A stretch of DNA of 64,000 nucleotides, taken from NCBI RefSeq assembly GCF_016765675.1, contig NZ_JAESWB010000233.1, positions 62,001 to 126,000 on the forward strand. Direction: 5' to 3'. The notes under the pieces are model-generated. The model made no database searches, had not been told where the DNA came from, and saw only the letters and a list, made by a program, of their open reading frames with translations. Shown here piece by piece: positions 6,598-38,414 of the stretch. Both the position numbers and the translations under genes were made by a program. Position 1 is the first letter of the stretch. Each line of letters begins with the position of its first letter. This DNA comes from Neobacillus paridis. Its GTDB lineage: Bacteria > Bacillota > Bacilli > Bacillales > Cytobacillaceae.

Positions 6598-7236
6598 TTA
6601 ATCATTGCTTGAGAGAATGCCAAAGATGCGCAGAATGCTAATAAACAGGTTAATGAAATCCAAGTATAGGCTTAACGCCAGTAATGGCACGTCTTCTGCC
6701 CTAACCCCGTAATGCTTCATCCGGCTGATATCAAAGAGAACATATCCGCTAAATACCAGCACTCCGATAAAGGAGAAAGCGAGCATTCCCGTTGAGCTGA
6801 GCGGGAAGAAAATGTTAAAAATTGAAATCGCCACTAACGCCAAGAGGGCCGCAAACAGGAATCCGCCTAAGAAGGAAAAGTTCCGCTTTGACTTCGCTGC
6901 ATAAATGGCTATCCCCGCGAACACAACGGTGGTTGTGGCAAATGCGTTTACGACAACATTAGCACCGGCAGTCGATGCGTAATAAGCGACAATTGGATAC
7001 AAGGTTACCCCTGAGATAAAGGTAAAGATATATAGGAACGAATAGGAAATCGCCTTTTTTCGTCTGAAAATGACGGCTGCAATAATCATCACTAATTCTA
7101 AAATCGATAATGGTAAAAATAAACTAGGCGGAACATACACTCCAGCCATGGTGCCAAGGAAGGCGATGGCAAGCGAGAAGGCAAATGTTCGTATTACTGA
7201 TGGCATAAATTCGGATGATGTTTGTGTATTATACAA
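6598..7236 (-). CDS. Bax inhibitor-1 (TMBIM) family membrane protein, YetJ-like
   Basis: 212 aa, close to the 214 aa of B. subtilis YetJ, a pH-dependent Ca2+ leak channel. Seven hydrophobic helices; the C-terminal part contains GYVLFDISRMKHYG and a conserved-type SLYLDFINLFISILRIFG, which holds the family Asp pair. TTG start at 7236 with ATGAGGTGA upstream (7243-7251). It likely mediates Ca2+/H+-linked flux across the cytoplasmic membrane. Confidence 0.88.
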   Translation of the reverse strand: MYNTQTSSEFMPSVIRTFAFSLAIAFLGTMAGVYVPPSLFLPLSILELVMIIAAVIFRRKKAISYSFLYIFTFISGVTLYPIVAYYASTAGANVVVNAFATTTVVFAGIAIYAAKSKRNFSFLGGFLFAALLALVAISIFNIFFPLSSTGMLAFSFIGVLVFSGYVLFDISRMKHYGVRAEDVPLLALSLYLDFINLFISILRIFGILSSND

Positions 7237-15042: not shown

Positions 15043-15200
15043 TATTTTTTGGGATTTTTTAAAAAATATCTTTAGATACTTGACTTAAAATTTTCTCCTT
15101 GGTAAAATGATCAATTTACTTTGTAGAATTTTGAAAAAATATGTGTAAAAAAGAAGTAAAAAAATTAAAATAGGATGACAAATTCTAACACCCCGTTAAA

Positions 15201-15217
15201 AAAGAACTAGATATAAT
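15201..15217 (+). promoter_or_regulatory. sinI leader promoter -10 with adjacent SinR-type box
   Basis: TATAAT (15212-15217) is a good -10, about 80 bp before the riboswitch. AAAGAAC (15201-15207) is the reverse complement of GTTCTTT, an exact match to the B. subtilis SinR consensus GTTCTYT. The box lies in the -10/-35 spacer, so SinR binding would repress sinI. The -35 is poor, so the promoter call is moderate. Confidence 0.45.
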
Positions 15218-15271
15218 GATCTTACTTAATATAAGTGAGTAAATTAGTCCTAACTTTAGTAGTCATATCGT

Positions 15272-15385
15272 TGGGTTACTAGAGTGATTTTGCAGAAAAA
15301 GGCAAACCTATTGAAAAATAGGGACGCAAAGCCGAGGATCTAAGGCAAGTACCCTACTTGCTACGATGGCCGGGTTACCTGGAAT
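15272..15385 (+). promoter_or_regulatory. cyclic-di-GMP-I (GEMM-I) riboswitch
   Basis: The aptamer core is visible: GGCAAACC, then hairpin CCTATT-GAAA-AATAGG with its GNRA loop, then GGGACGCAAAGCC, a second hairpin GCAAGTA-CCC-TACTTGC, and the closing GGCCGGGTTACC. These are the diagnostic conserved blocks and order of the class I c-di-GMP aptamer (compare Vibrio Vc2). It lies about 30 nt before the sinI RBS. A small AATAC/GTATT hairpin (15383-15397) sits between aptamer and RBS; no intrinsic terminator is seen before the gene, so translational control is the likelier output. Confidence 0.93.
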
Positions 15386-15416
15386 ACGACAAAGTATTTT
15401 AGGGGTGTGTTAATTA

Positions 15417-15542
15417 GTGGTTTTATCTGAGAGCGTAGTTGAAAAGATTGATGAAGAATGGGTATATCTGATATTGGAAGCCAAGAAACTGGGGTTAACC
15501 ATAGCGGAAGTGCAAAGTTTCCTTAACCAAAAGAATACTTAG
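15417..15542 (+). CDS. sinI: SinI-type antirepressor under riboswitch control
   Basis: A 41-aa protein: GTG start with AGGGGTG (15401-15407) upstream. The core VEKIDEEWVYLILEAKKLGL followed by TIAEVQSFL is the SinI dimerisation helix pair, which mimics the SinR C-terminal domain and pulls SinR into an inactive heterodimer. In B. subtilis sinI precedes sinR in tandem; here the two genes converge. Loss of SinR activity derepresses matrix genes, so this gene links c-di-GMP level to biofilm or motility choice. Function is inferred from family and context. Confidence 0.88.
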   Translation: MVLSESVVEKIDEEWVYLILEAKKLGLTIAEVQSFLNQKNT

Positions 15543-15560
15543 TCGGGTACATACAAAAAT

Positions 15561-15598
15561 AAAAGCATTCTGCAATCAAACATGCAGAATGCTTTTTT
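15561..15598. terminator. bidirectional terminator between sinI and sinR
   Basis: Stem AAAAGCATTCTGCA (15561-15574) / TGCAGAATGCTTTT (15583-15596) has A/T tracts on both sides, so it serves both converging genes. Confidence 0.92.
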
Positions 15599-15619
15599 AC
15601 GTCAATCAAAACCTGTTCC

Positions 15620-15943
15620 TTATTTATCTTGATTATTGCGCCATTTATTGAATTCAAGAAATTCACGAAACTGATCCTTTGAAACACCTGAATTCATTGC
15701 TTCCTTAACCAAATTCATCCAATCACTATCGAGCTCAGTTTTGTCAATTTGTTCATGAATTAAATATTCAACCGGAATATTTAAGACATGGGCAATTTTT
15801 TCGAGGAATTGAATCGAAGGGTTTTTTTGCAAATTTCTTTCCAATGAACTTAAATAGGATTTTGCAACACCGGCTTGTTCAGCAAGTTCGGATAGTGACA
15901 TTTTCTTTTCTGAGCGGAATCGTTTAACGCGGTCACCTATCAT
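15620..15943 (-). CDS. sinR: SinR-type biofilm repressor
   Basis: 107 aa (B. subtilis SinR is 111). The ATG at 15943 has AGGTG upstream; a GTG three codons earlier is possible. The HTH_3 domain MIGDRVKRFRSEKKMSLSEL...AGVAKSYLSSLERNLQ is nearly SinR-identical. The C-terminal SinI/SinR interaction helices are LDSDWMNLVKEAMNSGVSKD and QFREFLEFNKWR. It represses matrix and related operons as a tetramer and is antagonised by SinI. It converges with the riboswitch-controlled sinI and has no sinI directly upstream. Confidence 0.93.
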   Translation of the reverse strand: MIGDRVKRFRSEKKMSLSELAEQAGVAKSYLSSLERNLQKNPSIQFLEKIAHVLNIPVEYLIHEQIDKTELDSDWMNLVKEAMNSGVSKDQFREFLEFNKWRNNQDK

Positions 15944-38120: not shown

Positions 38121-38147
38121 ATGACAGCCTCAATGCGTTTAAGATAA
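38121..38147 (+). CDS. mefL: mef leader peptide MTASMRLR
   Basis: An 8-codon ORF behind AGGAGG (38105-38110) encodes MTASMRLR, the leader known upstream of mef(A) in streptococcal Mega-type elements, where macrolide-stalled ribosomes relieve attenuation. A terminator-like hairpin follows at once. Confidence 0.9.
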   Translation: MTASMRLR

Positions 38148-38156
38148 GCTGGCAAT

Positions 38157-38199
38157 AAAAAAGGCAGAATCTATCCCCGATGATAGGCTTTTTTTGTTG
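38157..38199 (+). terminator. attenuator after the mef leader peptide
   Basis: AAAAAGGC...TCTATC folds back on GATAG...GCTTTTTTT, ending in seven T. Its position directly after the leader fits drug-responsive attenuation. Confidence 0.75.
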
Positions 38200-38309
38200 T
38201 GCTTATTTATACGATATTGAGCATTCATTAGTTAAGGTGAGATATAGACTATTTAATTATAGCTTTATTTAACTATGCCTTTATAAAAGAATGTTTCCAT
38301 ATTGTATGT

Positions 38310-38352
38310 ATGCAGATCAGAGCCACATTGTGGATTTTGGCCTGCATTTTTT
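38310..38352 (+). terminator. second hairpin before mef
   Basis: ATGCAG...GCC pairs with GGC...CTGCAT followed by TTTTTTATT, 60 nt before the mef start; a second possible stop point in the 270-nt leader. Confidence 0.6.
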
Positions 38353-38414
38353 ATTGCCTAGAATACTATTCAAAATAGAAATTCAAGCAAAATAATATGC
38401 AGGAGATAATAAAA

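Follow-up and report, generated by a model that had tools for sequence, protein, structure and literature searches.

A predicted c-di-GMP-I riboswitch upstream of sinI, opposite sinR, in Neobacillus paridis and other Bacilli, with a possible relic in Bacillus subtilis

Within the 64,000-nt stretch of Neobacillus paridis DNA analyzed here (the window), a c-di-GMP-I (GEMM-I) aptamer on the plus strand (15291–15382) is followed after 34 nt by sinI, which encodes a 41-aa SinI-domain antirepressor from a GTG start (15417–15542, plus strand) and converges on a sinR orthologue on the minus strand (15620–15943; the longest ORF extends to 15952). SinR is the master repressor that acts as the biofilm brake, SinI is its antagonist, and c-di-GMP is a lifestyle signal. 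An earlier note, made from the sequence of this region, had listed these parts, and that observation is confirmed. The aptamer matches the covariance model RF01051 with 76.9 bits (gathering score, 35; E = 2.3e-13), and the 5′ strand of its P1 helix, CAG, lies at 15293–15295. The −10 hexamer of the sinI leader, TATAAT, is found at 15212–15217 (plus strand); no −35 element is recognizable for it at the locus, and our promoter scan did not list this hexamer. Downstream, a plus-strand hairpin (15378–15403) in which CCUGGAAUAC (15378–15387) pairs with GUAUUUUAGG (15394–15403) runs into the sinI Shine-Dalgarno (SD) sequence, read from the sequence as AGGGGTG (15401–15407, plus strand). Between the two genes lies a 14-pair stem-loop (15561–15596) that the earlier note had taken as a terminator common to sinI and sinR. 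The stem and the T-runs on both strands agree with this reading (one run on the minus strand, and six T at 15593–15598 on the plus strand, the first four also within the stem), but a consensus scan of the region for promoters and terminators gave a signal no better than chance, with one terminator-like site vs. 1.2 in shuffled sequence.

The window SinI matches the Pfam SinI domain (PF08671) with 40 bits (cut-off, 31.4), has no HTH, and falls below the cut-off of the NCBIfam equivalog model NF046031 (21.5 vs. 80 bits). Its alignment to PDB entry 1b0n_B is weak (E = 0.019); by sequence, it is a SinI-domain relative and not an equivalog of the B. subtilis type. SinR comprises an HTH_3 domain and a SinI/SinR dimerization domain, residues 4–108 of 110 align to 1b0n_A (E = 6.2e-38), and its HTH is almost identical to that of B. 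subtilis SinR. The ATG at 15943, where the region singled out in the earlier note also ends, aligns with Met1 of B. subtilis SinR.

The arrangement of aptamer, sinI, and sinR is widely conserved at the sequence level. We examined the best 80 named loci of 352 from a SinR search, whose labels include Neobacillus, Cytobacillus, Mesobacillus, Robertmurraya, and Bacillus, among them B. methanolicus and B. infantis; a few of the 80 labels (Pseudomonas, Chryseobacterium) are surely wrong. According to Rfam, c-di-GMP-I or its GGC variant adjoins sinR in 76 of the 80. Three of the four misses (L014, L030, and L049) lie on contigs that stop 100–260 nt past sinR, and in the fourth (L050) no aptamer was found either by Rfam or by our model R1, described below. 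A simple pattern identified a SinI ORF behind the aptamer in 74 of the 76 loci (the exceptions being L024 and L027), starting within ~35 nt of it save in L039 (Bacillus sp. MUM 116). In that locus the aptamer match is short (44 bits) and the gap to sinI is 234 nt, as if DNA had been inserted. An alignment of 70 leaders (A1) was made from the 76 named leaders minus six with split or long matches and minus L039, plus the window. GGC is invariant in all 70 and the C at alignment column 102 is present in 69; these presumably correspond to the Vc2 contacts G20–G21 and C92.

R1 was built from the same 70 leaders and contains the hairpin. A further set took one sinR locus from each of 78 genomes. Of these, 63 belong to other genera or families, drawn from 89 such genomes (in the remaining 26, SinR matches were weak or absent), and 15 belong to the same genus, drawn from 60. 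R1 matches 57 of the 78 at E <1e-11 (42/63 from other genera or families and 15/15 from the same genus), and in 56 of these 57 a SinI ORF, again detected by pattern, lies directly 3′. Forty of the 57 are convergent with sinR and 17 are on the sinR strand, 15 of the latter with the aptamer upstream of sinR in the order GEMM-sinI-sinR. The other 21 of the 63 loci have no convincing aptamer: 20 gave no match with Rfam either, even when the threshold was loosened, although a separate SinI-like ORF is still near sinR in 13 of them, and the 21st (L137) is a weak match. An aptamer-only model, R2, run on the 22 loci with no good R1 match or a weak one, picked out only L122 (41.5 bits). One locus from the family of the window (L096) retains a sinI SD with six G and has no detected aptamer, possibly through independent loss. 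The named and further sets overlap, such that their 133 aptamer-positive loci reduce to 117 distinct core sequences, which form 85 clusters. In a class-wide scan, R1 matched in 98 of 299 genomes. For 30 class-wide loci among the matches listed, an HMM scan placed SinI behind the aptamer in 20, of which nine come from families f50, f73, and f58, all three outside the order; sinR is inside 15 of the 30, including six of those nine, all from f50. The gene behind the aptamer is thus sinI, as the earlier note had it, and the pairing is conserved across many genera. In many bacilli, the gene for SinI, the releaser of the biofilm brake, lies behind a putative RNA switch that should sense c-di-GMP.

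The earlier note had also proposed that SinR feeds back negatively on sinI through a box beside the −10. This box, GTTCTTT on the minus strand (15201–15207), 4 nt upstream of TATAAT, is an exact but weak match to GTTCTYT, which we take to be the SinR operator consensus: the window has 19 copies of GTTCTYT, a chance-level number (20.9 expected). Across 77 leaders, whose relatedness means that this and the following promoter counts are not independent, GTTCTYT is present in 16 (5.4 expected; the largest of 200 shuffles had 12) and absent in 61, and AAAG[AGT]AC is present in 38 (7.5 expected). This enrichment and an HTH nearly that of B. subtilis SinR speak for feedback. However, AAAGGAC (18/77) is commoner than AAAGAAC (14/77), such that the promoter itself may be what is conserved, and the window has a single box without an inverted partner. 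We therefore regard feedback by SinR as a tentative possibility.

A second promoter element lies farther upstream. In the window it is GACAAATTCTAACAC (15177–15191, minus strand), a conserved element 35 nt upstream of the −10 that we read as a tandem Spo0A (0A) box. GACA[AT] stands exactly 35 nt upstream of a −10-like hexamer in 68 of the 77 leaders (shuffled mean, 0.25; maximum, 3), and GACAAA followed after 1–4 nt by AACA is found in 49 (0.24 expected). Relative to the 0A-box consensus TGTCGAA, as a passage of PMC10134886 gives it, the window has TTTGTCA (the reverse of TGACAAA) and, upstream of the element, the 0A-box-like 9-mer TTTGTAGAA (15120–15128, plus strand; 8 of 9 to TTTGTCRAA), both imperfect. 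The element could instead be the site of a regulator other than Spo0A, given that its fit to TGTCGAA is partial, that an exact TGTCGAA or its reverse TTCGACA occurs in 12 of the 77 leaders, and that 17 of 30 Bacillus sensu stricto loci (L203–L219) have no such box at 34–36 nt. Yet 12 exact boxes compare with 0.55 expected, the best match to TTTGTCRAA in 250-nt leaders is perfect in 15 of 77 (1.2 in shuffles) and 8 of 9 in 51 (21 in shuffles), and the remaining 13 Bacillus loci, among them that of B. subtilis, have TTCGACA 34–35 nt upstream of the −10. A different regulator is, in our view, rather unlikely, and the element is probably a Spo0A site in a promoter with no separate −35. The earlier note had contrasted this locus with the Spo0A-driven sinIR of B. 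subtilis. That contrast is not supported: a 0A-box-like element stands at a fixed −10 spacing in most leaders, in B. subtilis the TTCGACA box upstream of sinI is at nearly the same position (34 nt), and Spo0A is probably still an input to sinI.

The bases at the 3′ end of the aptamer suggest how the switch may act. Throughout A1, the aptamer 3′ end and the bases that follow it are complementary to a segment whose end is the SD. The resulting 10-bp helix is paired in 97.3% of 693 cells, compared with 26–57% when the partner is slid by 1–3 columns. Covariation is modest, with five cells changed on both sides; in L031, L037, L040, and L041, which have CCUGGGGGG at the SD, the lower half of the helix is held by G-C and U-G pairs with one mismatch. 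The helix takes in only the AGG of AGGGGUG. P1, formed by CAG with CUG, is short, with three pairs well kept and the fourth mostly unpaired. Covariation lends it no support (74.0% of cells paired vs. 75.4% in shuffles, with a covariation score below all 500 shuffles), and the RNAalifold consensus includes neither P1 nor the anti-SD helix. Positions 15378 and 15379, the CC of CCUGG, are presumably the equivalents of Vc2 C92 and C93, the ligand-pairing C and the first P1 base. Because c-di-GMP and P1 would need these same C's, ligand binding and SD pairing should be mutually exclusive, and we infer that the ligand turns sinI ON. No T-run comes after the hairpin, which is therefore not an intrinsic terminator, and we reject transcription termination as the platform.

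Folding predictions are consistent with this direction for most leaders. When the aptamer and P1 are enforced, the median unpaired probability of the SD rises from 0.23 to 0.65, with an increase in 66 of the 70 leaders; this release follows partly by construction from the enforcement, and the transcript starts were set by rule. Relative to the anti-SD fold, the enforced fold costs a median of 9.1 kcal/mol (range, −9.7 to 18.7), which tight ligand binding could make up. In the window leader, SD accessibility instead drops from 0.36 to 0.22, because UCCUAA in the leader re-pairs with the SD in the enforced fold; it lies in UAGUCCUAA (15245–15253, plus strand), a stretch complementary to UUAGG of the SD region and a possible second anti-SD. 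The SD unpaired probability also falls in L006 and L058 and is unchanged in L069. Such re-covering of the SD would fit a switch with the same aptamer and gene that is OFF with c-di-GMP, or one that acts on transcript stability or elongation and not on the SD, and stretches like CCUA recur, by eye, in long Neobacillus leaders. Short-leader lineages without such a stretch nevertheless retain the same hairpin (also by eye), the absence of a T-run argues against an effect through termination, and the bases for which the helix competes are those that should contact the ligand; we consider an OFF switch, or an action on stability or elongation, improbable. The CCUA-like stretch could also be a protein site. 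From the modeled folds, translational ON is the likeliest mode for the family and is less certain for the window sequence.

We favor, as likely, a two-input switch in which Spo0A~P and c-di-GMP act together on the SinR antagonist sinI, with translation turned ON by the ligand. In this model, sinI would be transcribed from a promoter with only a −10 element, probably activated by Spo0A~P around −33 to −47, and the transcript would open with the leader, followed by the c-di-GMP-I aptamer. When the ligand is absent, CCUGG and the next AAUAC would pair with GUAUUUUAGG and cover the sinI SD. When it is present, the two C's would be taken by c-di-GMP and P1, the anti-SD helix could not form its lower half, and sinI would be translated. 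SinI would then pair with SinR and lift its repression, possibly of exopolysaccharide genes, and, in cells with Spo0A~P as well, high c-di-GMP would favor production of the matrix. The interpretation given in the earlier note, in which c-di-GMP sets SinI synthesis and SinR feeds back on the promoter, is partly supported. Through a switch of this kind, c-di-GMP would reach the SinR biofilm switch of Gram-positive spore formers directly, in a way open to test, and its signal would be joined with that of Spo0A in a two-input gate on SinI.

Although the earlier note knew of no description of this wiring, and it is nearly unreported in the open literature, two papers touch on it. A 2015 study (PMC4342826) names a putative (c-di-GMP)-sinI riboswitch in B. 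methanolicus MGA3 (BMMGA3_08510) in one sentence and a table row; this is the same riboswitch-gene pair as in the window, with an RNA-seq 5′ UTR in MGA3, and B. methanolicus DE0196 is locus L057 of our named set. The passages of that study on the pair do not take up the expression platform, breadth, direction, promoter logic, or link to B. subtilis. The second, a 2023 survey (PMC9943018), describes a c-di-GMP-I riboswitch beside a Paenibacillus SinR homologue, as in the window, and reads it as antisense control of the regulator; its main text does not contain the word "sinI". That the element serves mainly to control sinR by antisense is very improbable for the window, even with that survey and the convergent orientation here and in 40 of the 57 further loci in its favor, and we reject it because a sense sinI ORF with its SD lies directly behind the aptamer, where an antisense riboswitch would have no sense gene, because a terminator-like stem stands between sinI and sinR, and because the aptamer is on the sinR strand in 17 of the 57 loci and cannot be antisense there. 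Sense control of sinI, which we prefer, suggests an alternative reading of the Paenibacillus claim.

The Bc1 and Bc2/cap riboswitches of B. thuringiensis belong to the same aptamer class, and the target of Bc2 is linked to the sessile lifestyle. The B. thuringiensis GEMM-I targets, in adhesion or motility, are effector genes, whereas the window target is the antagonist of a master repressor; likewise, the window platform is an SD hairpin, whereas the Bc1 abstract describes two rho-independent terminators (PMC4933901, PMC11218506). Array data cited in a passage of PMC7793685 report that sinI is up on diguanylate cyclase overexpression in B. thuringiensis, a result that fits the ON link and is silent on this leader.

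The most surprising part of our analysis is a possible riboswitch relic in B. subtilis. L137, which reaches only 20.5 bits by R1, retains the hairpin. In its genus, Bacillus sensu stricto, sinR is present in 44/44 genomes, and 30 loci among those listed were read. All 30 have CTGAAATAC-loop-GTATTTT[AG]GG immediately before sinI, including L231, whose SinI is identical to B. subtilis SinI (PDB 1b0n_B) at 57/57 residues. R1, with its hairpin, scores 13–24 bits at these sinI leaders. With R2 and filters off, the best sinI leader among the 30 loci scores 12.2 bits (E = 0.42) and the top match, at 13.3 bits, is away from the sinI leaders; this signal is at noise level, and thus there is no functional aptamer in these loci. 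The B. subtilis sinI-sinR locus resembles the window in its SinI and SinR orthologues, its 0A box 34 nt from the −10, and the same SD hairpin sequence, but it differs in having no detectable aptamer, the gene order sinI-sinR, and a longer C-terminal tail on SinI.

Traces of the aptamer may survive in part of the genus. In the subtilis-like loci, the sequence before the hairpin, ATGGCCGGACTGGCTG, closely resembles the sequence in which intact aptamers end, ATGGCCGGACTGCCTG (as in L042), with the ligand-contacting C altered (the C92 equivalent is G); pumilus-like loci keep CC. We aligned 16 of the 30 loci, right-anchored, to intact aptamers, with group names assigned from the sequences. None of 200 shuffles reached the score in any of the six subtilis-like loci, the result was marginal in four licheniformis-like loci (2–8 of 200 shuffles reached it), and four pumilus-like loci, L225, and L220 showed no signal. 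L169–L171, from a different genus in the family of Bacillus sensu stricto, have an intact aptamer together with sinI and sinR, and L169 and L170, but not L171, have the 35-nt box. The simplest reading of these sequences is that the aptamer was lost within the genus Bacillus, where the hairpin without a detectable aptamer is probably a decayed riboswitch; B. subtilis appears to have lost the c-di-GMP sensor and kept its hairpin. It is reasonably likely that riboswitch control of SinI is ancestral in much of the Bacilli and that the B. subtilis leader is a decayed copy in which the hairpin and the Spo0A box are left. If so, the Spo0A-driven SinI switch of the textbooks would be a simplified circuit of derived origin, and the hairpin left in B. 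subtilis may still hold back translation of SinI; altering it slightly could reveal whether the relic still matters. The loci would also offer a series of riboswitch decay, from intact L169–L171 to a hairpin without an aptamer in B. subtilis. A search of the open full-text literature, which leaves subscription journals mostly outside, found no title on a riboswitch relic before B. subtilis sinI.

The N. paridis genome itself has four c-di-GMP-I aptamers, 14 GGDEF matches, and 9 EAL matches, and c-di-GMP signaling is therefore probably present. The three aptamers outside the window lie in L001 (contig C92), L002 (contig C81), and L004 (contig C27), and one of them is a short and weak match (39.5 bits). 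Two more small ORFs with a SinI domain occur in L196 (contig C366) and L198 (contig C74), neither contig having an aptamer match. As for possible SinR targets, the genome has no match to the TasA family. Palindromes of the form GTTCTYT-N0-4-ARAGAAC number three, compared with two in a reversed control, and inspection of the ORF list around them found no obvious matrix genes. An exopolysaccharide cluster (L237, 6700–15929; contig C269) has an epsC/EAR leader RNA and, just upstream of its Wzz gene, a SinR-like HTH gene; GTTCTTT at 6951 and 7108 flanks the EAR element, in a 16-kb stretch that holds 12 GTTCTYT in total. Exopolysaccharide genes are possibly SinR targets here. Elsewhere in the window, 38124–38354 (plus strand) is a strong, full-length match (218 bits) to Rfam sRNA_1300 (RF02862), a family described from Enterococcus; by SinR, the closest named relatives of the present genome are Neobacillus and Bacillus.
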